Below, one piece after another: positions 10,149 to 42,630 of a stretch of DNA of 64,000 bases; position 1 is the stretch's first letter, and every line of letters begins with the position of its first letter. The stretch is from Stenotrophomonas sp. SAU14A_NAIMI4_8. GTDB lineage: Bacteria > Pseudomonadota > Gammaproteobacteria > Xanthomonadales > Xanthomonadaceae. The DNA lies in the NCBI RefSeq assembly GCF_003086695.1, contig NZ_CP025999.1, forward strand, positions 242,320 through 306,319. The letters are read 5' to 3'. The notes beneath the pieces are model-generated. The model ran no database searches and had not been told where the DNA came from. It saw only the letters and a program-made list of their open reading frames with translations. A program made the translations under genes and the position numbers.

Positions 10149-11036
10149 ATGAATCTTCCCGGTTACCCCGCCCACCCGCAGCGTTTCGAGGTTCGCCCCG
10201 GTCTGTCGATGAACTATCTCGACGAGGGCCCGCGCGATGGCGAGGTGGTGGTGATGGTGCACGGCAACCCGTCGTGGAGCTATTACTGGCGCACGCTGGT
10301 GGCCGGCCTGTCGGACAGGTACCGCTGCATCGTGCCCGACCATATCGGCATGGGCCTGTCGGACAAGCCCGATGACAGCCGCTACGCGTACACCCTGCAG
10401 TCGCGCGTGGACGACCTGGATGCGCTGCTGAAGCACCTGGGCATCACCGGCCCGGTGACTCTGGCCGTGCACGACTGGGGCGGCATGATCGGCTTCGGCT
10501 GGGCGCTGTCGCACCACGATCAGGTGAAGCGCCTGGTGGTGCTCAACACCGCGGCCTTCCCGCTGCCGGCGGCGAAGAAGATGCCGTGGCAGATTGCGCT
10601 GGGCCGGCACTGGAAGATCGGTGAGTGGATCATCCGCACCTTCAATGCGTTCTCGTCCGGTGCCTCGTGGCTGGGCGTGGAGCGGAAGATGCCGGCCGAT
10701 GTGCGCCGCGCCTACGTGGCGCCGTACAACAGCTACGCCAACCGCATCAGCACCATCCGTTTCATGCAGGACATTCCGCTGTCGCCGGCCGACAAGGGCT
10801 GGTCGTTGCTGGAACGCGCCGGCCAGGCGCTGCCGTCCTTCGCCGACCGCCCGGCCTTCATCGGCTGGGGCCTGCGCGACATCGTGTTCGACCACCACTT
10901 CCTGAAGGGCTTCCAGGCCGCGCTGCCGGCCGCCCAGGTGCATGCCTTCGAAGATGCCAACCACTACGTGCTGGAAGACAAGCACGAAGTGCTGGTGCCG
11001 GAGATCCGCGCCTTCCTGGACGCCAACCCGATCTGA
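10149..11036 (+). CDS. oleB: OleB, beta-lactone decarboxylase (alpha/beta hydrolase)
   Basis: Last step of olefin synthesis: opens and decarboxylates the beta-lactone made by OleC to give the cis-alkene. The 295-aa haloalkane-dehalogenase-like fold shows HGNPSW (oxyanion region, about 38-43), nucleophile D109 in VHDWGG and the catalytic His in ANHYVLED (H272). ATG 10149 gives MNLPGYPAHP; earlier in-frame codons overlap the end of fic and are unlike the family. It begins 25 bases after fic. Followed by a triplicated repeat and the antisense ykgJ-type gene before oleC. Confidence 0.95.
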   Translation: MNLPGYPAHPQRFEVRPGLSMNYLDEGPRDGEVVVMVHGNPSWSYYWRTLVAGLSDRYRCIVPDHIGMGLSDKPDDSRYAYTLQSRVDDLDALLKHLGITGPVTLAVHDWGGMIGFGWALSHHDQVKRLVVLNTAAFPLPAAKKMPWQIALGRHWKIGEWIIRTFNAFSSGASWLGVERKMPADVRRAYVAPYNSYANRISTIRFMQDIPLSPADKGWSLLERAGQALPSFADRPAFIGWGLRDIVFDHHFLKGFQAALPAAQVHAFEDANHYVLEDKHEVLVPEIRAFLDANPI

Positions 11037-11040
11037 TCGG

Positions 11041-11400
11041 TGTGCGGGGTCGGATCCCTCTCGCAGAGAGGGCTCTGACCCCCTCTGCGCGACACGGGGT
11101 CAGAGCCGTTTCTTCGAAACGGATCCGACCCGTGGCCTCAGGCCGCGATCGGGCTGCCTCGGTGTGTGGGGTCGGATCCCTCTCGCAGAGAGGGCTCTGA
11201 CCCCCTTGCGCGACACGGGGTCAGAGCCGTTTCTTCGAAACGGATCCGACCCCTGGCCTCAGGCCGCGATCGGGCTATTTCGGTGTGCGGGGTCGGATCC
11301 CTCTCGCAGAGAGGGCTCTGACCCCCTCTGCGCGACACGGGGTCAGAGCCGTTTCTTCGAAACGGATCCGACCCCTGGCCTCAGGCCGCGATCGGGCTGC
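11041..11400. repeat. Tandem triplication, ~121-bp unit, carrying ykgJ 3' end and two hairpins per unit
   Basis: Three direct copies start at 11041, 11163 and 11284 (periods 122 and 121; copy 2 has a one-base deletion). Each contains two GGGGTC-family hairpins (inner stems CCTCTCGCAGAGAGG and CCGTTTCTTCGAAACGG) and ends in TCAGGCCGCGATCGGGCT, which is the stop codon plus last coding bases of the antisense ykgJ-type gene. Only copy 3 is attached to the real gene. Confidence 0.9.
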
Positions 11401-11752
11401 CGTCGCTGCCTTCCCAGTCCGCCGGGGTCAGCAGGGCCAGGCCATAGGCAAGGCGCGCCTTGTCGCACTGCGGGCTGGCCTTGCCGTATTCCCACGAGGC
11501 ATCGACCTCGCGGCACACGCTGGGCCGGTTGGGGTGGATGGTGCAGCGTGAATACACGCCGATCTGCGCATCCAGGGCCACGCAGCGCACCGGCTTGGAA
11601 TGGGTGCCGCGCATGCACAGGCGGTGCGGGTCCAGCGTTTCGGTCAGCTGGTGCGGTACCCCGCCGGGGGTGACCTCGTCCGATTCCATCCAGTGAAAGG
11701 CCACGCGGTACTGGGTGCAGCAGGCGCCGCAGGTCATGCAGGGATGTTGCAT
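11381..11752 (-). CDS. YkgJ-type CxxxCxxCC zinc/iron-chelating domain protein
   Basis: Small metal-binding protein of 123 aa with the family hallmark of clustered cysteines at the N-terminus (HPCMTCGACC), then C-M-R-G-T-H, a mid-protein RC, SRCTIHPNRPSVCREV, and a final QCDKAR. The set is typical of the UPF0153/YkgJ family, thought to bind zinc or an Fe-S cluster. The start MQHPCMTC (ATG 11752) is the usual family start. It lies antisense between oleB and oleC, so it is not part of the ole transcript. Its last codons are repeated in the tandem triplication. Confidence 0.87.
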   Translation of the reverse strand: MQHPCMTCGACCTQYRVAFHWMESDEVTPGGVPHQLTETLDPHRLCMRGTHSKPVRCVALDAQIGVYSRCTIHPNRPSVCREVDASWEYGKASPQCDKARLAYGLALLTPADWEGSDGSPIAA

Positions 11753-11855
11753 GGTCAAGCCGCCTCGGGCGGCAGTGGAATGGGTGACGAGGCTGCGGAT
11801 TTTCCACGAAGTCGGCCGCCGCGCAAGAAATTCCGTAAGCGGCGACAATGAACGG

Positions 11856-13514
11856 ATGAACCGACCCTGCAATATTGCCGCGCGGCTGCCGGAACTGGCC
11901 CGTGAACGCCCCGACCAGATCGCCATCCGCTGCCCCGGCCGCCGAGGCGCTGGCAACGGCATGGCCGCCTATGACGTGACCCTGGACTACCGCCAGCTGG
12001 ACGCCCGCAGCGATGCCATGGCGGCCGGCCTGGCCGGCTACGGCATCGGCCGCGGCGTGCGCACGGTGGTGATGGTGCGGCCTTCGCCGGAGTTCTTCCT
12101 GCTGATGTTCGCCCTGTTCAAGCTGGGCGCGGTGCCGGTGCTGGTCGATCCGGGCATCGACAAGCGCGCGCTGAAGCAGTGCCTGGACGAAGCGCAGCCG
12201 GAGGCCTTCATCGGCATTCCCCTGGCCCACGTGGCCCGTCTGGCGCTGCGCTGGGCACCGTCGGCCACCCGTCTGGTGACCGTGGGCCAGCGCCTGGGCT
12301 GGGGCGGCACCACCCTGGCCGCGCTGGAGCGCGCCGGCGCCGCCAGCGGCCCGATGCTGGCCGCCACCGACGGCGAGGACATGGCCGCGATCCTGTTCAC
12401 CAGCGGCTCCACCGGCGTGCCCAAGGGCGTGGTCTACCGCCATCGCCACTTCGTCGGCCAGATCGAACTGCTGGGCAACGCCTTCGGCATGGAAGCGGGC
12501 GGGGTGGACCTGCCGACCTTCCCGCCGTTCGCGCTGTTCGACCCGGCGCTGGGGCTGACCTCGGTCATTCCGGACATGGACCCGACCCGGCCGGCGCAGG
12601 CCGACCCGGCGCGGCTGCACGATGCCATCCAGCGTTTCGGCGTGACCCAGCTGTTTGGTTCGCCGGCATTGATGCGCGTGTTGGCCCGCCATGGTCGGCC
12701 GCTGCCGTCGGTCACCCGGGTCACCTCGGCCGGCGCCCCGGTGCCGCCGGACGTGGTGGCTACCATCCGCCGCCTGCTGCCGGGCGATGCGCAGTTCTGG
12801 ACGCCCTATGGCGCCACCGAGTGCCTGCCGGTGGCCGTGGTGGAAGGCCGTGAACTGGAACGTACGCGTGCCGCCACCGAGGCCGGCGCCGGCACCTGCG
12901 TGGGCAGCGTGGTGGCGCCCAACGAAGTGCGCATCATCGCCATCGATGACGCCCCGCTGCCCGACTGGTCGCAGGTGCGCGTGCTGGGCGTGGGCGAAGT
13001 GGGCGAGATCACCGTGGCCGGGCCGACCGCCACCGACAGCTACTTCAACCGCCCGCAGGCCACCGCCGCGGCGAAGATTGCCGAAACCCTGGCCGATGGC
13101 AGCAGCCGCATCGTGCACCGCATGGGCGATGTCGGTTACTTCGATGCGCAGGGCCGCCTTTGGTTCTGTGGGCGCAAGACCCACCGCGTGGAAACCGCGC
13201 GCGGGCCGCTGTACACCGAACAGGTGGAACCGGTGTTCAACACGCTGCCCGGCGTGGCCCGCACCGCACTGGTGGGCGTGGGCGCGGCCGGTGCGCAGGT
13301 GCCGGTGTTGTGCGTGGAGCTGCAACGCGGCACCCGCGATGGCGCGGCCCTGCAGGAGGCGCTGCGCGCCCATGCGGCCACGCACCTGCCCGCTGCCGGT
13401 GTGCAGCACTTCCTGGTCCATCCGGGCTTCCCGGTGGACATTCGACACAACGCCAAGATCGGCCGCGAAAAGCTGGCCGTCTGGGCCAGCGCTGCCTTGG
13501 AGAAGCGTGCATGA
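11856..13514 (+). CDS. oleC: OleC, beta-lactone synthetase (ANL superfamily)
   Basis: ATP-dependent conversion of the 2-alkyl-3-hydroxyacid from OleD to a beta-lactone. The 552-aa product has the AMP-binding P-loop [11 protein letters not shown] starting at residue 181, the YGATE motif ([10 protein letters not shown]), and the late [17 protein letters not shown] hinge region. The start [15 protein letters not shown] (ATG 11856) is preferred because earlier in-frame codons run through the antisense ykgJ-type gene. The stop overlaps the oleD start (ATGA), implying translational coupling. Confidence 0.95.
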
Positions 13515-35117: not shown

Positions 35118-35141
35118 GCCGAATCCGGCCGGCCCCTGTCC

Positions 35142-35212
35142 GTAGAGTCGAGCCTGCTCGACTGGCGCAATCCGGCCGGGGCTGAGGAGCAGTCGAGCAA
35201 GCTCGACTCTAC
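35142..35212. repeat. SMAG palindrome pair
   Basis: GTAGAGTCGAGCC module at 35142 and inverted AGTCGAGC...CTCTAC module at 35191-35212, 25 bases after aceA. Confidence 0.85.
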
Positions 35213-35256
35213 GGGCCTACGACCCCCGATCAGGGTGGCCAGGGAAGGGCCAGACG

Positions 35257-35440: not shown

Positions 35441-36481
35441 ATGACCGGCAGGGGTTCAGCCGAGACATCAGACATGACATCCGGTATCGCCACAGCGGCG
35501 ATGGCCGGGATGACGCATGCCGTGCTTTCCGACGCTGAAGTGGCCCTGTTCGCGCAGTTTTCCCAGCCGCGCCCGCTGCCGGCCGGCCAGTGGTTGTTCC
35601 TGCGCGGGCACCCCGGCCAGAGCATGTACGTCATCCTGGAAGGCCAGATTGAACTGGACTTCGGCGAAGACCTGCTGGTGAAGACCCTGGGCCGCCACGA
35701 GTTCTTCGGCGAACTGGGCCTGCTGATGGGCAACCACGCCCGCAGCGCCGGCGCCCGCGCGATGAGCGACTGCACGGTGCTGGAACTGGGCCCGGATGCC
35801 TTCCAGCGCCTGGTCGATGCCGATCCCGGCCTGGTGGCGCAGTTCCTGCGGCGCACGATCATGCGCGTGCTGGCCAACGAACAGGCCCTGATCAGCCAGC
35901 TGCGGCGGCGCAACCACGACCTGGAAACCGCGCTGGACAACCTGTACATCACCACCCACCAGCTCACCCATACCCGCGAGCTGGTGCGTACCGATGAACT
36001 GACCGGACTGCACAACCGCCGCGGCCTGACCCTGTACTTGAAGGAATCGCGCGCGCACCCCGACGGCCCGCCGCAGGCGTTGCTGCTGATCGACTGCGAC
36101 CACTTCAAGCAGATCAACGACCGCCATGGCCACCAGGCCGGCGACCGCGTGCTGCAGAGCATGGGCAACATCCTGCGTTCAATGGCCGGCGAGCACGATC
36201 TGGCCTGCCGCCTGGGCGGCGATGAGTTCTGCCTGATCCTGCGCCGCGCCGACCGCGAGGCCGCCCAGCATGCCGCCGAGTTCATCCTCAGCGCCGTGCA
36301 CGGCCTGCTGGAACGCGGCCACGGCACCCCGCACGTCAGCCTGGCCAGCATCGGCGTCAGCATGCTGGTACCGGAGGCCGACTGGAGCGAATGGTATGCC
36401 GGTGCCGATCGGGCGCTTTACGAAGCCAAGCGCGCCGGCGGAAACTGCCTGCGATGGGCCCACGGCCCGGACGGACAATGA
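35441..36481 (+). CDS. cNMP-binding domain / GGDEF diguanylate cyclase
   Basis: 346-aa signalling protein. Residues ~25-145 form a cyclic-nucleotide-binding domain (LPAGQWLFLRGHPGQSMYVILEGQ, then FFGELGLLMGNHARSAGARA). A short coiled linker leads to a GGDEF domain with intact G259-G-D-E-F263, so it should make c-di-GMP. The RxxD inhibitory site before GGDEF is missing (GEHD there), suggesting no product inhibition. The architecture and the adjacent cyclase recall the X. campestris XC_0249/XC_0250 pair, in which the cNMP domain binds cGMP. Later starts at 35474 or 35501 are possible. Confidence 0.92.
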   Translation: MTGRGSAETSDMTSGIATAAMAGMTHAVLSDAEVALFAQFSQPRPLPAGQWLFLRGHPGQSMYVILEGQIELDFGEDLLVKTLGRHEFFGELGLLMGNHARSAGARAMSDCTVLELGPDAFQRLVDADPGLVAQFLRRTIMRVLANEQALISQLRRRNHDLETALDNLYITTHQLTHTRELVRTDELTGLHNRRGLTLYLKESRAHPDGPPQALLLIDCDHFKQINDRHGHQAGDRVLQSMGNILRSMAGEHDLACRLGGDEFCLILRRADREAAQHAAEFILSAVHGLLERGHGTPHVSLASIGVSMLVPEADWSEWYAGADRALYEAKRAGGNCLRWAHGPDGQ

Positions 36482-36493
36482 GCGGAGACCCAG

Positions 36494-39034
36494 GTGATGA
36501 ACGGCGACACCGGAACGTCGACCCCGCACAGCCCTCAGCTGCGCGCGTTGCTCTTCACCGATCTCTGCGACTCACTTACCCTGGTCGAACACATAGGTGA
36601 CAGTGCAGCCGCAGAACTTTTCCAGGACCATGACCGCTTGGTGCTGCGGCTTCAGCAAACCTGGAACGGACGCCTGATCGATCGGTCCGATGGCTTGTTC
36701 CTGCTGTTTGAACGCCCGATCGATGCACTGGGGTTCGCACTTGACTACCAGAGTGAACTGGCCGTGCTTGGCACCGCGCGCAATGTCAGCCTCCGTGCCC
36801 GCGCGGGCTTGAACGTGGGCGAAGTCATCCTCTGGAACAACAGTGCCGAGGCCGTGGCCCACGGTGCCAAGCCGGTCGAGGTCGAGGGGCTGGCCAAGCC
36901 CATGGCTGCGCGGCTCATGCAGCTGGCCCGCCCTGGGCAGATCCTGGTATCGGCGTCGGCCGAATCGACGGTCCGGCGCAGCGCCGGCGAGCTGGGCAGC
37001 CGAGGACAGAGTCTTCAGTGGAAATCACATGGTCGCTGGCGCTTCAAGGGCATCGCCAGTGAACAGGAAGTGTTCGAGGTCGGCGTGCCGGGTGAGGCCG
37101 AATTCCGCAGGCCTCGCAGCCACGGCAAGGCGCGCCGCTCGATTGCGTGGTGGCGCAGACCCCTGCCTATGGCGATGAATGCCGTAGCGGCGCTGGTGTT
37201 GGCTCTCATCGGCTGGTCGCTGTTGCGACCCGCGCCTGCCATCGCTTTCGCCGAACGCGAATGGATCGTGCTGGCGGACGTACAGAACCTGTCCGGCAAC
37301 ATGTTGCTGGACGATGGCTTCGAACAGGCCTTCCGCATCAGCCTGGAGCAGTCCCGGTACGTCAATGTGCTCAGCAACATCAAGGTGCAGGACACGTTGG
37401 AGCGGATGCGCCAGGAACGAGGCCTGCTGGACACGCAGGCTGCAGTGGAAGTCGCGCTGCGTGAAGGCGCACGTGCGGTCGTGGTGCCGCGTGTGGAAGA
37501 GCTGCATGGTCGCTTGCGGGTGACCGCGCAGCTGATCGATCCCACCACCGGCAAGGTGGTGTGGACCACGCATGCCGAGCAGCGGGGGATGGAATCGCTG
37601 TTTGCCTCCACTGATGCGGTTACGGTGGCCCTGCGCAACGAGCTGGGCGAGGCCATGAAGCAGGTTTCGCAGACGTCGCTGCCGCTGCCGCAGGTGGCCA
37701 CCAGTGATCTGGATGCACTGCACGCCTACGCGATAGGCCTGCAGGCCTACGGCGATGGCCATTACAACGAAGCGCTGCGCTTCTTCGAGCAGGCATCGCG
37801 CTTCGATCCCCTGTTCGCCTTCGCTTATCTGGGGCAGATGCGGGTCTATGTCGCCCGTGGTGATCTGGACAACGCCCGGCGCATGCTGAACCGTGCCGGT
37901 GGCATCCGTGCCCGCCTTCCCGGCCGTGATCGCCTGTATCTGGATGCATGGCGTACCGAGCTGGAAGATGGCCGCCTCGAGGAGGTGTCCGCCAAATGGA
38001 AGCTGCTGGCTGATCTGTATCCGGATTATCACGGTGCCCACGCGAACTACGCCTGGGCCATGCAGACCCTGGGGCGCTATCCCGAATCCGAAGCGTCGGC
38101 CAGGAAGGCCACCGTTGCCGCCAATCCCCTGCAGTCCATCGCATGGCAGGATGTCGGCCGCGCGCAGCTTGCCCAGAACAACTATGCCGGTGCATTGGAA
38201 AGCTACCGCGTATCCGCCAGGTTGGGGCGATGGACCAGCAACCGCCACCTCGTTGCGGCCACGGCAGCGTCAGGTGACCTCGCCGGTGCACAGCGAATGA
38301 TCGACGGCGAACCCGATCGGGGGTTTGGCAACGGCTTGGAAGGCGTTGCCGTGGCGGTCGATGCCGGCGACACCGCGCGTGCCGCCGCCGCCAACAAGCG
38401 CGCGCTGAAGGCCTGCGGAGAAAGCGTGTTGGCCTGCCAGATGTTCGAACTCCAGGCGTTGCTGCTGGCTACCGAAAGCGGTCGTCCAGCGGACGCTTCG
38501 GCTTTTGATCGCGTCACTCGCGGACTGCTGGCCCGCGTCAAGGCGACCAAGGGACAGGATCGCGCCGAATGGATGTTTCTGGCCGCAGCGGCGGCCTATG
38601 GCGCGCAGCGGGCAGACCATGCACAGGTGGCAGGCGATCTATTGCCTGCCCTGAAGGAACTGTCCGATTCGGTCGGCGACCTGCGGAGTCGGCAGATGGT
38701 GACCTTGGTCGAGGCCAACGCCGACCGCCTGCAGGGGCATGCGGCAGAAGCCCTTGCCCGTCTGCAGCCTCTGTTGGATGGTACTGAACTGTTCCAGGCG
38801 CGCGTTGTGCGCTGGCAAGCACTGGCGGCCGAGCACGACCCGGGCGAGCCGGAAGCACGCCAGTGGCTGCTGGCCAATGCAGGCCGTGCCTATGCGGAAA
38901 GTGCGGGGTCCTACGTGATGCAGCTGGTCAACACCAGCGAACTGCGCCAGGCCCGCACCTGGGCCTCGGCGCAGCAGAACGCATCCCTTACGGTGCGGGC
39001 GGGTGCCGCAGCTGCGCGTCAATCTCGCCACTGA
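36494..39034 (+). CDS. Class III nucleotidyl cyclase-TM-TPR protein ('peptide modification system cyclase' type)
   Basis: 846 aa. Residues ~15-195 are a class III cyclase homology domain: FTDLCDSLTL with metal Asp D23, the second Asp D66 in DRSDGLFLLF, NVGEVIL, and GLAKPMAARLMQLARPGQILVS. One membrane helix (~226-244) is followed by a periplasmic part with a TolB/CadC-like segment and tetratricopeptide-like repeats from ~405. The lysine that usually precedes the GD of purine-selecting cyclases is not obvious. It begins 12 bp after the cNMP-GGDEF gene, like the guanylate cyclase XC_0250 of X. campestris. It also fits the TIGRFAM group named putative peptide modification system cyclase. Base composition looks lower in G+C than neighbours. 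Confidence 0.88.
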   Translation: MMNGDTGTSTPHSPQLRALLFTDLCDSLTLVEHIGDSAAAELFQDHDRLVLRLQQTWNGRLIDRSDGLFLLFERPIDALGFALDYQSELAVLGTARNVSLRARAGLNVGEVILWNNSAEAVAHGAKPVEVEGLAKPMAARLMQLARPGQILVSASAESTVRRSAGELGSRGQSLQWKSHGRWRFKGIASEQEVFEVGVPGEAEFRRPRSHGKARRSIAWWRRPLPMAMNAVAALVLALIGWSLLRPAPAIAFAEREWIVLADVQNLSGNMLLDDGFEQAFRISLEQSRYVNVLSNIKVQDTLERMRQERGLLDTQAAVEVALREGARAVVVPRVEELHGRLRVTAQLIDPTTGKVVWTTHAEQRGMESLFASTDAVTVALRNELGEAMKQVSQTSLPLPQVATSDLDALHAYAIGLQAYGDGHYNEALRFFEQASRFDPLFAFAYLGQMRVYVARGDLDNARRMLNRAGGIRARLPGRDRLYLDAWRTELEDGRLEEVSAKWKLLADLYPDYHGAHANYAWAMQTLGRYPESEASARKATVAANPLQSIAWQDVGRAQLAQNNYAGALESYRVSARLGRWTSNRHLVAATAASGDLAGAQRMIDGEPDRGFGNGLEGVAVAVDAGDTARAAAANKRALKACGESVLACQMFELQALLLATESGRPADASAFDRVTRGLLARVKATKGQDRAEWMFLAAAAAYGAQRADHAQVAGDLLPALKELSDSVGDLRSRQMVTLVEANADRLQGHAAEALARLQPLLDGTELFQARVVRWQALAAEHDPGEPEARQWLLANAGRAYAESAGSYVMQLVNTSELRQARTWASAQQNASLTVRAGAAAARQSRH

Positions 39035-39296
39035 CGAAGCAGTGCGGCACGCGGAACACTGCATCGGCGGTGAGGCGTTCCACCAAGCGGTCGCGCGCCT
39101 GGGCAAACTCCTCCTTGCTGGCCAGTGGGCCCTGGGTGCTGCAATCCTTGCACGCCTCGGCGACATCGGGTGCAATCGCGCCCAGCGCCTTGGCCGGGGT
39201 TTCATGGAAAACAGCTCGGAACGCGTCGTCGCTGGACAGCAGGTCGAGCAGCTGCAGCGCTTGCTCGGGGGAGAGCAGGGGAAGATCGGGGGTCAT
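38988..39296 (-). CDS. Putative modified-peptide precursor, NHLP-leader-like
   Basis: 102-aa protein with an acidic, leucine-rich N-terminal part (LSPEQALQLLDLLSSDDAFRA, then VFHETPAKALGAI) that resembles nitrile-hydratase-like leader peptides of RiPP precursors. The remaining part has C49-x-x-C52 (EACKDCSTQG) and C86 (PHCFVSG) and ends PPAP. AGAGG lies 7 bases before the ATG (39296). Its 3' end overlaps the cyclase gene by 47 bp on the opposite strand. Context (mod-peptide cyclase and SagB-like dehydrogenase) supports a precursor; no core cleavage site can be named. A longer in-frame start at 39413 is less likely. Confidence 0.78.
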   Translation of the reverse strand: MTPDLPLLSPEQALQLLDLLSSDDAFRAVFHETPAKALGAIAPDVAEACKDCSTQGPLASKEEFAQARDRLVERLTADAVFRVPHCFVSGEIDAQLRHPPAP

Positions 39297-39439
39297 TCTA
39301 CGGCCTCTGGTTCTGGGAAAAAGCGCGATGGCAGTTGCATGATGCCAGTGCAGGTAGCGGCGGCGGCCGCGATGGCTTGAGCCGACAGTTCCAGCTGCTG
39401 CGGCCGAAAACATCTCTGTCGACTTCCCGGACCACCGCC

Positions 39440-40609
39440 ATGCCCGTACCCCGCTTCCGCCGCTGCCAGCAGCTCATGATCGAACTGCGCACGGTCGAAC
39501 ATTACGCTGTGGCCGACCTGCTGGCGGGCGGAACCTCGGTCGTCAGCAGCACGCAGTGGGTTGCCGTTGCTCCGCATCTGGACGCAGCGGTCGTGCTGGA
39601 CGAGGACATGCTGCTGGCATTGGGGCGGATGCCCGCTGAGCAATGGACGGAAGACGGTCCGCAGTTTTCGCGTGGCGTCATCGCGCGTCTGTGCCAAGCC
39701 GGCCTCGTGTTCGGCGATGGCGATGAGGATCACGCGTGGCAGGAGGCCGAGCGAGCCTTGTCAGCCACCTCCTGGTGGACGCCTGCGGCGGTCATGCATC
39801 GGCTCGCGCGCTGGCAGAACCAGGACAGTGTGACAGCACTGCGCGAAGCGGGACTGGAGACGGCAGCGGGCCTGTGCAGGCAACTGGGTCCGCCACCGCC
39901 GGCATGTGCCGAGCCTGGAGAGCGCGCCATCGATCTGGTGGTGCCTGATGAAGTGCCCTTCGATGCCTGGCTCAAACAGCGCGCTACCTGCCGCAACTTT
40001 GATCGCACACGCCTGCTCGACCTTGCCACGCTCTCACAGCTGCTATGGCGGGTGTTCGCCAGTCATGGAGAGCAGCGCGAAGGTGATGACGCGATCTTCC
40101 TGAAGAAGAATGTGCCCTCTGCGGGGGGATTGCATCCCACCGAGGCCTTCCTGCTGGTCCAGTCCGTCCTGGGCCTGGAGCCCGGCCTGTACCGCTACCA
40201 TCCCATCGACCACAGCCTCAGCCCCGTTGCTGGGCCGGTTGACGATCCCGCTGCGTTGGCCCGGCGGTTTGTTGCCGGGCAGCAGTGGTTTGCCGATGCC
40301 CATGTTCAGGTGGTTCTTGCACCACGCTTTGCGCGTACCTTCTGGAAGTATCGCCAGCATCCGAAGGCCTACCGTGCGGTGATTCTCGACGTTGGTCACG
40401 CCTCGCAGCTGCTGCTTTCGTGTGCGACCGAGGCCCGGCTGGGCGCCTTCGTCACCGCCGCGATCAATGAGCAGGATATCGAGCAGGTACTCGAGCTGGA
40501 TCCGATGCAGCAGAGCCCGATGGCCATCTGTGGGATTGGCTGGCGCAGTGAGCTGATGACAACCAGTGAGTTCGATCCCGGCCGCCAGGTCTGGCAGCCG
40601 GGAACCTGA
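39440..40609 (+). CDS. SagB-related FMN dehydrogenase, putative peptide maturation enzyme
   Basis: 389 aa. The C-terminal half is a SagB/nitroreductase-like domain: RATCRNFD (181-188), LSQLLWRVF, KKNVPSAGGLHPTE (222-235), GLYRYHP (249-255), then VILDVGHASQLLLSCA. The N-terminal ~170 residues (winged-helix-like, with FSRGVIARLCQAGLVF) may bind a peptide leader. SagB enzymes oxidise azolines to azoles in RiPPs, but no YcaO-type cyclodehydratase gene is present in this window. Divergent from the precursor-like gene across 143 bp. Fits the TIGRFAM group of putative peptide maturation dehydrogenases. Confidence 0.85.
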   Translation: MPVPRFRRCQQLMIELRTVEHYAVADLLAGGTSVVSSTQWVAVAPHLDAAVVLDEDMLLALGRMPAEQWTEDGPQFSRGVIARLCQAGLVFGDGDEDHAWQEAERALSATSWWTPAAVMHRLARWQNQDSVTALREAGLETAAGLCRQLGPPPPACAEPGERAIDLVVPDEVPFDAWLKQRATCRNFDRTRLLDLATLSQLLWRVFASHGEQREGDDAIFLKKNVPSAGGLHPTEAFLLVQSVLGLEPGLYRYHPIDHSLSPVAGPVDDPAALARRFVAGQQWFADAHVQVVLAPRFARTFWKYRQHPKAYRAVILDVGHASQLLLSCATEARLGAFVTAAINEQDIEQVLELDPMQQSPMAICGIGWRSELMTTSEFDPGRQVWQPGT

Positions 40610-40614
40610 AACCG

Positions 40615-42630
40615 TCAACCCGCCTCGAAATCCACCAGCACCGCGCCATCCCCCACCTGGTCGCCCGCCTTGGCGCGGTACCCCTTCACCGTGCCATCGG
40701 CCGGTGCCTGCAGGGTGTGCTCCATCTTCATGGCTTCCAAAACGACCAGCGGCGTGCCGCGCTTTACCTGGGTGCCGGCCTGGACCAGGGTGGCCACGAT
40801 CCTGCCCGGCATCGGTGCCAGCAGGCTGCCGGCATCGGCGCTGGCGGTGTCCGATTCGGCAACCGGATCGTGCAGGGTGAAGCGGTGCTGGCCCGCTGCA
40901 TCGAACAGGAACAGCTGGCCGCCGTCGCGCAGCAGCTGCGCCGACCGGCGCCGGCCATCTACCTGCAGCGTCAACTGTTGTGCATCGGCGGTGCCGATCA
41001 GCGTTGCCGGCGCCGCGTCATCGCACTGCACGCGCCAGCCGTCGGCCTGCGCCCACACCTTCAGGGTGCGGGTGCGCTCGCCCTGCTGCAGCGGCAGCAC
41101 GCGCGCTGCGGCGGCACCCAGGCGCCAGCCATCCTGCGCCTGCCAGGGCGAATGCGGATCGCGCGCATCGCTGCCGGCACGCGCGGTGCTGGCCACGGCC
41201 GCGACGGCCGCCAGCTGCCACAGATCGTCATCGGCATCGCCCACCGCATTCAGTGCGGCCTGCTCGCGTTCGATCAGCGCGGTATCCAGCTTCGCGTTGG
41301 CAAACGAATCGGTGTTCACCAGCCGGCGCAGGAAGCCGGCATTGGTGGTCACGCCCACCACCTGGCAGTCGGCCAGGGCCTGGCTCATGCGGCGCAGCGC
41401 GGCATCGCGGTCCACGTCCCAGACGATCAGCTTGGCAATCATCGGGTCGTAGTACGGGGTGATGCTGTCGCCTTCCTCTACGCCGGTATCCACGCGCACG
41501 TTCGACGAGGGCGCCGGCAGGCGCAGGCGGCGCAGGGTGCCGGTGGACGGCAGGAAGCCGCGGTCGGCATCTTCGGCATACAGCCGCGCTTCGATGGCGT
41601 GGCCGTGGATGGCCAGTTGCTCCTGGCGCAGCGGCATCGGCTGGCCGGCCGCCACGCGCAATTGCCACTCCACCAGATCGGTGCCGGTGATGAACTCGGT
41701 CACCGGATGTTCCACCTGCAGGCGGGTGTTCATTTCCATGAAATAGAAATCGCCATCCGGACCGGCAATGAACTCCACCGTGCCGGCGCCCACATAGCCC
41801 ACCGCGCGCGCGGCATCGACGGCCGCCTTGCCCATGGCCGCGCGGCGCTCGGCGCTCATGCCCGGCGCCGGTGCTTCTTCCAGCACCTTCTGGTGGCGGC
41901 GCTGCACCGAGCAGTCGCGCTCGAACAGGTAGACCGCATCCCCGTGGGAATCGCCGAACACCTGGATCTCGATGTGGCGCGGGCGCTCGACATACTTTTC
42001 GACCAGCACATGGTCGTTGCCGAAGGCCGATGCCGCCTCGCGCTGGCAGCTGGCCAGCGCATCGACGAAATCGTCGCTGCGTTCAACCTTGCGCATGCCC
42101 TTGCCACCGCCGCCGGCGCTGGCCTTGATCAGCACCGGGTAGCCGATGGCATCGGCCTGTTCGCGCAGGAAGGCCGGTGCCTGCTGGTCGCCGTGGTAGC
42201 CCGGGGTCAGCGGTACGCCGGCCTGGGCCATCAGCGCCTTGGCCGCGCTCTTGTCGCCCATCGCGCGGATGGCGCTGGGCGGCGGGCCGATGAAGGTGAT
42301 GCCCGCAGCGGCACACGCATCGGCGAAGTCCGCATTCTCGGACAGGAAGCCATAACCGGGATGGATGGCCTGCGCACCCGTGCGCCGCGCCGCGTCCAGC
42401 AGCACGTCGCCGCGGAGGTAGCTGTCGCGGGCGGCGGCCGGGCCGATATGCACGGCCTCGTCGGCCAGGCGCACGTGGCGCGCGGTGCGGTCGGCATCGG
42501 AATACACCGCCACGGTGGCGATGCCCAGGCGACGGCAGGTGGCAATCACGCGGCAGGCGATTTCGCCACGGTTGGCGATCAGGATCTTGGTGAACATGGC
42601 AACGGGCTTCATGGGAGCGTGCTCGGTCAT
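40615..42630 (-). CDS. liuD: Methylcrotonyl-CoA carboxylase biotin-containing (alpha) subunit
   Basis: Carboxylates biotin and carries it to the transferase subunit in leucine/isovalerate breakdown. The 671-aa product has ILIANRGEIACRVI, the ATP-grasp loop ASAGGGGKGM, EMNTRLQVEHPVTE, and the C-terminal biotin site EAMKMEH (K635). In-frame ATGs at 42612 and 42597 (MFTKILIANRGE, the commonest family start) are alternatives. Follows liuB by 8 bp. Substrate inferred from the isovaleryl-CoA dehydrogenase in the same operon. Confidence 0.93.
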   Translation of the reverse strand: MTEHAPMKPVAMFTKILIANRGEIACRVIATCRRLGIATVAVYSDADRTARHVRLADEAVHIGPAAARDSYLRGDVLLDAARRTGAQAIHPGYGFLSENADFADACAAAGITFIGPPPSAIRAMGDKSAAKALMAQAGVPLTPGYHGDQQAPAFLREQADAIGYPVLIKASAGGGGKGMRKVERSDDFVDALASCQREAASAFGNDHVLVEKYVERPRHIEIQVFGDSHGDAVYLFERDCSVQRRHQKVLEEAPAPGMSAERRAAMGKAAVDAARAVGYVGAGTVEFIAGPDGDFYFMEMNTRLQVEHPVTEFITGTDLVEWQLRVAAGQPMPLRQEQLAIHGHAIEARLYAEDADRGFLPSTGTLRRLRLPAPSSNVRVDTGVEEGDSITPYYDPMIAKLIVWDVDRDAALRRMSQALADCQVVGVTTNAGFLRRLVNTDSFANAKLDTALIEREQAALNAVGDADDDLWQLAAVAAVASTARAGSDARDPHSPWQAQDGWRLGAAAARVLPLQQGERTRTLKVWAQADGWRVQCDDAAPATLIGTADAQQLTLQVDGRRRSAQLLRDGGQLFLFDAAGQHRFTLHDPVAESDTASADAGSLLAPMPGRIVATLVQAGTQVKRGTPLVVLEAMKMEHTLQAPADGTVKGYRAKAGDQVGDGAVLVDFEAG

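Follow-up and report, generated by a model that had tools for sequence, protein, structure and literature searches.

Matched polymorphism of a predicted guanylate cyclase sensor and a neighbouring precursor peptide and dehydrogenase in the Xanthomonadaceae

What does the guanylate cyclase of the Xanthomonas cyclic GMP (cGMP) pathway respond to? In 2013 its TPR domain was described as uncharacterised and without known function (PMC3770947). The question is raised again by a locus in the window analysed here, a stretch of 64,000 nucleotides from Stenotrophomonas sp. SAU14A_NAIMI4_8 (NZ_CP025999.1, positions 242,320 to 306,319), in which a gene for a cNMP-binding GGDEF protein is followed by genes for a class III cyclase with a TPR-like half, a small NHLP-related precursor peptide on the opposite strand and a SagB-like dehydrogenase (Table 1). 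A prediction made from the letters of the window (the original prediction) had joined the Xanthomonas pair XC_0249/XC_0250 to the peptide families TIGR04509/04510/04511, and proposed either that the cyclase senses or reports maturation of the peptide or that the peptide is a signal read via cGMP and then cyclic di-GMP (c-di-GMP). Here we find that the locus is polymorphic, which is a new result. By sequence comparison the peptide, the dehydrogenase and the sensor half of the cyclase appear to have been exchanged between species together as matched sets, and we consider it probable that the matured peptide is an exported ligand that tunes the cGMP output of the cyclase and then c-di-GMP through the cNMP-GGDEF protein.

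Within Xanthomonas we compared 26 of 29 loci; six of the 35 Xanthomonas genomes are without a cNMP match. Six loci, three of them from Xanthomonas, were left out for lack of a single full-length cyclase or a full-length dehydrogenase (L042, L057, L089, L244, L245 and L247). The 26 loci carry six peptide types, with 13, six and four members and three singletons. Identity between loci of the same and of different peptide type was 0.92 and 0.89 for the GGDEF protein and 0.95 and 0.92 for the catalytic domain; for the sensor half it was 0.83 and 0.33, for the peptide 0.80 and 0.30, and for the dehydrogenase 0.82 and 0.44. The ranges for the sensor are disjoint, with a minimum of 0.736 within a type and a maximum of 0.551 between types. 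When divergence of the GGDEF protein and catalytic domain was controlled for, the sensor remained correlated with the peptide (r 0.77) and with the dehydrogenase (r 0.90; p 0.0005), but catalytic domain and peptide were uncorrelated (r -0.09, p 0.86). The DNA of two Xanthomonas loci, L236 and L049, gives an example: it is 97% identical up to about 22 bp behind the membrane helix, has no detectable similarity through the sensor, peptide and dehydrogenase, and is 98.8% identical again from 262 bp behind the dehydrogenase match.

The same pattern extends across nine genera. Among 86 loci there are 234 pairs in which both the GGDEF protein and the catalytic domain are at least 0.9 identical; 88 of these share the peptide, with sensor identities of 0.59-1.00, and 146 differ in it, with sensor identities of 0.22-0.67. 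Likeness of sensor and of peptide agrees at the 0.6 mark in 232 of the 234 pairs, leaving two on the wrong side. Breakpoints were mapped in all but one of the 146 close pairs that differ in peptide; the exception (sensor 0.67) was filtered out. Upstream homology ends behind the helix in every one of the 145, at 13 to 1178 bp (median 277), and resumes near the end of the dehydrogenase in 135, at a median of 228 bp behind it. Within the dehydrogenase, identity between types is 0.34 in the N-terminal and 0.59 in the C-terminal half. We make no claim for a breakpoint exactly at the dehydrogenase domain border, considered from blastn matches in Stenotrophomonas, as the C-terminal half is merely more conserved.

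The main rival explanation is that linkage alone holds the sets together, the sensor diversifying for some other reason, such as an envelope cue, and the peptide and dehydrogenase hitchhiking to the nearest homologous flank. The three genes are adjacent, and in most pairs the block ends close behind the dehydrogenase, as the distances above indicate. The interior of the block cannot be aligned between most types and offers no homology for crossovers, so that crossovers inside it would be rare and linkage alone could keep the sets matched. We nevertheless regard this explanation as unlikely, as it accounts neither for the divergence of the sensor in step with the peptide tail, which the catalytic half does not follow, nor for the finding that a cyclase scoring over cut-off lacks the peptide in just two of 151 genomes. 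Moreover, the dehydrogenase can part from the other two: in the pair L035/L106 it is 0.90 identical, yet the sensor is 0.34 and the peptide 0.39 identical. This pair separates the enzyme from sensor and peptide, not the sensor from the peptide.

Exchange of matched sets is also consistent with the trees. Mapping peptide type onto a tree of the GGDEF gene and the catalytic half takes 11 changes, where 5 is the minimum and shuffled types average 12.0, with 59 of 200 shuffles giving a count this low; an approximately unbiased (AU) test on this backbone rejects a clade for every one of the three larger types (p <= 2e-6). The sensor tree, a quick tree with long branches for the singletons, accommodates peptide type in the minimum of 5 changes (0 of 200 shuffles as low), each type forming one clade. 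The types are scattered on the backbone tree and clustered on the sensor tree, which argues that the sets moved between species as units. In L098, a cyclase fragment without a catalytic domain (10528-12333, plus strand), starting from the juxtamembrane part, lies directly behind the dehydrogenase; its stranded sensor is 50% like those of L033 and L092, and it is likely a relic of cassette replacement.

The copy in the window is itself mixed in its affinities. Its GGDEF protein is nearest to loci of the S. maltophilia group (0.82-0.84, vs 0.70 for S. bentonitica L132 and S. rhizophila L133), and the catalytic domain does not discriminate (0.69-0.70 for L132/L133 vs 0.70-0.75 for the S. maltophilia group). 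The remaining parts are nearest to L132/L133: the sensor at 0.54 (vs 0.28-0.35 for the S. maltophilia group), the peptide at 0.56-0.57 (vs 0.33-0.41) and the dehydrogenase at 0.55 (vs 0.40-0.49). The peptide tail of L132/L133, FPHCFVSGDIDSQL, mirrors that of the window, VPHCFVSGEIDAQL.

Is this the locus of the cGMP pathway? Among solved structures the closest to the cNMP domain is 5h5o, which we take to be XC_0249. Two X. hortorum proteins (L184 and L188) are 97% identical to the 5h5o chain over 126 residues of this domain, the best match among the 35 Xanthomonas genomes, X. campestris lying outside the sample; the same contigs, as L227 and L229, carry the peptide and dehydrogenase. Five residues of XC_0249 whose change lowered cGMP binding have been identified (PMC3770947), and the window protein keeps all of them (F74, E91, H99, N146 and E147). 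An alignment of 92 sequences shows no variation at Glu90, His98 or Glu146; Phe73 is conserved in 90 of them and Asn145 in 79. Adjacent homologous genes with equal domains and the five cGMP-contact residues thus bear out the original prediction that the first two genes are the XC_0249/XC_0250 pair, and, judged from these features, the locus appears to be that of the Xanthomonas cGMP pathway. In X. campestris cGMP is made by the cyclase domain and stimulates the GGDEF protein as a diguanylate cyclase (PMC3770947). What differs is the cassette: peptide, dehydrogenase and sensor polymorphism are absent from the passages of PMC3770947 consulted, and its text makes no mention of an operon, XC_0251, XC_0252, a membrane or the periplasm.

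We surveyed 247 genomes of the family with profiles for the four genes. The cyclase was scored over its cut-off, the dehydrogenase at E <= 1e-40 (149 of 150 over cut-off), the peptide at E <= 1e-5 (all over cut-off) and the GGDEF protein at E <= 1e-45. The cyclase was found in 151 genomes, the dehydrogenase in 150, and the peptide and GGDEF protein in 152 each; 140 genomes have all four genes and 86 have none, which rejects an independent distribution. Every genome with the dehydrogenase also has the peptide. The peptide occurs without the dehydrogenase only in G007 and G024, where the contig ends close behind and cuts the dehydrogenase, respectively. G126 has the cyclase only, and G011, G120 and G175 have peptide and dehydrogenase with no cyclase over cut-off. 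Joining the cGMP pathway to the peptide families was therefore right, given the family matches, the conserved linkage and the co-distribution; the absence of a hidden Markov model match, the lack of conserved linkage and the independent distribution that the original prediction had named as telling against itself were none of them found.

The exact order of GGDEF (+), cyclase (+), peptide (-) and dehydrogenase (+) is present in 50 of 100 fetched loci, and many others have the same order plus extra copies. In 87 of the 93 loci with a cyclase match, those with one full cyclase and an opposite peptide, the dehydrogenase runs with the cyclase in 75, with the peptide in 10 and with neither in two. 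With one locus of different gene order (L069) left out, cyclase and peptide genes overlap tail to tail in 52 of 86 loci (53 when L069 is counted) and end within 50 bp of each other in 78 of 86. Several loci depart from this plan. L054 and L055 (G022 and G067) have several peptides and dehydrogenases crowded together; L055 has two cyclases, and the gene for the nearest GGDEF relative lies at another site of the genome. In L085-L089 the GGDEF protein is present and the other cassette genes are absent. Its signature motif looks to be decaying in two of these loci, being GDDEF in L085 and DDDEF in L088, with the guanine-contact Glu kept. L142, from a record titled Bacillus subtilis SK7B5, is a whole xanthomonad locus of 68% G+C and probably contamination; the search that yielded it kept 80 of 297 relatives.

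The overlap bears on a further explanation, in which the peptide is an output: cGMP and c-di-GMP would control the making of the peptide, the sensor would read something else, and the overlap could add antisense control. Tail-to-tail overlap is commoner for cyclase and peptide (34 of 54) than for other convergent pairs of the same loci (61 of 252, with a rough open reading frame (ORF) caller), and the GGDEF protein accounts for only part of the regulatory effects of the cyclase, as discussed in PMC3770947. As this leaves unexplained why it is the sensor half that varies with the peptide and the catalytic half does not, we hold it to be very improbable; antisense control through the overlap could be a side feature of the locus.

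Each of 119 cyclases has one strong hydrophobic peak, flanked by more positive charge towards the catalytic domain than towards the sensor, and three have a second, weaker peak; the sensor half should therefore face outward, and it is predicted to be extracytoplasmic. In a profile of 40-residue steps that leaves out L252 and L253, sensor identity between types stays within 0.15-0.53 from residue 281 on. The tail is the most type-specific part of the peptide, with identities of 0.89 within and 0.17 between types; ahead of LASKE the corresponding values are 0.76 and 0.30. The RRNPP receptors are a known case of TPR domains binding signal peptides. A protein search with the peptide found just 12 relatives; the peptide evolves fast. 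The matched exchange of sensor and peptide favours the proposal that the peptide is a signal, likely strain-specific, read via cGMP and then c-di-GMP; the other proposal, that the cyclase senses or reports peptide maturation, gained no specific support.

How might the peptide be matured? An NHLP-related leader lies beside a predicted modifying enzyme, as in NHLP-type ribosomally synthesised and post-translationally modified peptides (RiPPs). There is no YcaO match in the one-contig genome of the window, in contrast to the TOMM/LAP azole clusters (McbBCD, SagBCD), and as the genome is complete the product is not a standard azole RiPP; this class was dropped. YcaO is not over cut-off in 137 of the 150 relatives with the dehydrogenase. 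It is over cut-off in 13 of the 247 genomes, in each on another contig or far away; all 13 are among those with the dehydrogenase, by chance or because they are RiPP-rich. The sole exporter family sought, the C39 transporters, is present in the window genome at about 2.24 Mb, unlinked to the cassette.

Beyond the family, 349 phylum-sampled genomes gave a dehydrogenase over cut-off in six, all of the order of the window, and 10 weaker matches. A search for viral copies with a single-protein query confirmed none. In five Streptomyces loci and one from Kribbella, peptide and dehydrogenase are present but neither a cyclase nor a GGDEF protein is encoded within the stretch, and TIGR04510 occurs in none of these six genomes. 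From these pairs without the cyclase we infer that peptide and dehydrogenase form a wider module, to which the cyclase would be a partner in the Lysobacterales. In these loci (L136, L138, L139, L148, L149 and L152) one to five precursor peptides diverge from the dehydrogenase, and some of the tails (HTVVFAL...) resemble those of xanthomonads. A constant actinobacterial partner was sought with Pfam among 18 flanking ORFs of the six loci; the families were mixed, none occurring in more than two loci.

That actinobacteria keep peptide and dehydrogenase without the cyclase would also suit an antagonistic role, with a bacteriocin-like peptide as the weapon and a polymorphic sensor that serves self-recognition or competition sensing, not pheromone reception. 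Matched exchange of a weapon and its recognition part would give the same pattern. In Pseudomonas sp. Os17, moreover, a distant cluster supporting antibiotic activity (Os1348-1351) likewise pairs a small NHLP-clan precursor with a SagB-type dehydrogenase, and no sagC or sagD homologues were found there (PMC7726476). The window peptide has a weak, sub-cut-off match to NF038399. The Os17 cluster differs in its linked acetyltransferase, peptidase-like protein and RND efflux genes, and no cyclase is named in the passages of PMC7726476 consulted. We think such a role improbable: the conserved cytoplasmic half is a cyclase next to a cGMP-responsive diguanylate cyclase, and mutation of the cyclase leaves X. 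campestris viable, with less biofilm and lower virulence (PMC3770947), a phenotype that speaks against a role in immunity.

The four ORFs of the window lie where the original prediction had placed them, and the peptide, cyclase and dehydrogenase match its three TIGR families far over cut-off (Table 1). Pfam finds cNMP_binding and GGDEF domains in the first protein. The second protein has no Pfam cyclase domain at E <= 0.01, but its predicted model is closest to class III cyclase structures, with Rv1900c at the top. The Lys-Tyr pair of the dehydrogenase is present in 96 of 97 sequences. Each gene has a single match, at the thresholds used, in the 4.48 Mb genome. The peptide ORF is nested in a longer mechanically called ORF (38988-39413), and that of the dehydrogenase opens at 39125, upstream of its probable ATG start. 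The GGDEF and cyclase genes are co-directional, the peptide gene converges on the cyclase gene, and peptide and dehydrogenase diverge from the region between them; the four genes thus read as one unit in the sense of a genetic module but not of an operon. The lower G+C noted for the cyclase and dehydrogenase genes is slight (1 kb bins over 37001-41000 of 0.641, 0.663, 0.661 and 0.655, within 0.615-0.728 for the whole window), a weak argument for a foreign island. Between the upstream gene and the GGDEF gene (35141-35214) an inverted pair of GTAGAGTCGAGC-type repeats was seen by eye, resembling the REP elements known in Stenotrophomonas.

Table 1 Features of the locus, in window coordinates
Feature	Position	Strand	Evidence
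cNMP-binding and GGDEF protein, XC_0249 homologue, conserved backbone of the locus	35441..36481	+	Pfam; cGMP-contact residues
TIGR04510 transmembrane class III cyclase, XC_0250 homologue	36494..39034	+	986 bits (cut-off 400); model pLDDT 90; cyclase fold
Cytoplasmic catalytic domain of the cyclase (approximate), conserved across Xanthomonas peptide types	36527..37108	+	
Predicted single membrane helix, cyclase residues 223-244	37160..37225	+	model; hydropathy peak; positive inner side
Predicted extracytoplasmic sensor half (alpha/beta part and TPR-like repeats), exchanged with the peptide	37241..39031	+	
TIGR04509 NHLP-related precursor peptide, 102 aa, type-specific tail near VPHCFVSGEIDAQLR	38988..39296	-	85 bits (cut-off 34); tail comparison
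Tail-to-tail overlap of cyclase and peptide genes, 47 bp	38988..39034	.	
Divergent intergenic region between peptide and dehydrogenase	39297..39439	.	sequence
TIGR04511 SagB-like FMN dehydrogenase, Lys303-Tyr304 pair	39440..40609	+	491 bits (cut-off 240); model pLDDT 94; fold
No DNA similarity to the Stenotrophomonas L254 locus, both flanks aligning	37841..40096	.	blastn blocks

A close parallel in layout is with the pherotype loci of Bacillus, ComQXPA. There a signal precursor, a processing enzyme and a membrane receptor are adjacent, as their candidate counterparts are here, and variability is highest in the signal C-terminus, the enzyme and the sensor part of ComX, ComQ and ComP, with the cytoplasmic part conserved (PMC4008528). 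Joint polymorphism of the putative signal, processing enzyme and sensor over a conserved cytoplasmic part is what we find in Xanthomonas and, with exceptions in Stenotrophomonas, in other genera. The window locus differs in having a guanylate cyclase, not a histidine kinase, a flavin dehydrogenase, not an isoprenyl transferase, and Gram-negative hosts. Animal guanylate cyclases that act as peptide-hormone receptors have an outer sensor, one helix and an inner cyclase, a similar arrangement if the predicted topology holds; the window cyclase has a TPR-like sensor and an inverted domain order. In the open-access papers searched we found none on TIGR04509/04510/04511 or the 'peptide modification system cyclase', nor one joining Xanthomonas with RiPP and NHLP. 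Among the matches listed for RiPP or precursor peptide with guanylate cyclase or cyclic di-GMP none was on the locus by title, and 'pherotype' was absent from the matches listed. The 'peptide maturation dehydrogenase' of PMC8939145 is a SagB beside graspetide enzymes.

Taken as a pathway, the SagB-like dehydrogenase would oxidise the precursor without a YcaO partner, the matured product would leave the cytoplasm by an unlinked route, and the TPR-like sensor half would bind its cognate product. The ligand would tune the cGMP output of the cyclase, and cGMP would act through the cNMP-GGDEF protein on c-di-GMP. Such a locus would work like ComQ-ComX-ComP, with a guanylate cyclase replacing the histidine kinase in a pherotype quorum-sensing system. 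We incline, by a small margin, to the fuller proposal of a xanthomonad pheromone system, with a YcaO-free oxidised peptide, a periplasmic TPR sensor, a guanylate cyclase receptor and communication types swapped between species.

Several observations weigh against the peptide being the ligand of the cyclase in an exchanged set. As L035/L106 indicates, the three components do not always move as one; some homology persists within the block in three of the 145 close pairs, and in L092/L094 (Stenotrophomonas) the catalytic domain also differs (GGDEF 0.97, catalytic 0.69). Pairs of loci share loci and hence are not independent, and the unalignable interior of the block has been mentioned. G054 lacks peptide and dehydrogenase but has the GGDEF protein and cyclase, the GGDEF protein is the only one of the four in seven genomes, and eight have the peptide but no close GGDEF match. 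The cassette holds no exporter, and the C39 family is only mildly associated with the dehydrogenase (114 of 150 genomes with it vs 54 of 97 without; odds ratio 2.5, p 0.001). The Streptomyces and Kribbella pairs suggest that the peptide has some use without this receptor. XC_0250 is without two transition-state residues of class III cyclases, though active in vitro (PMC3770947).

For the cGMP pathway of these bacteria, the locus provides candidates for the ligand gene of the cyclase and for a maturation enzyme, and it maps a putative specificity domain. Judged by gene content, the SagB-like oxidase would also act without a cyclodehydratase. If the proposed role is true, pherotype-style peptide communication would reach Gram-negative bacteria and include a receptor that is a guanylate cyclase.

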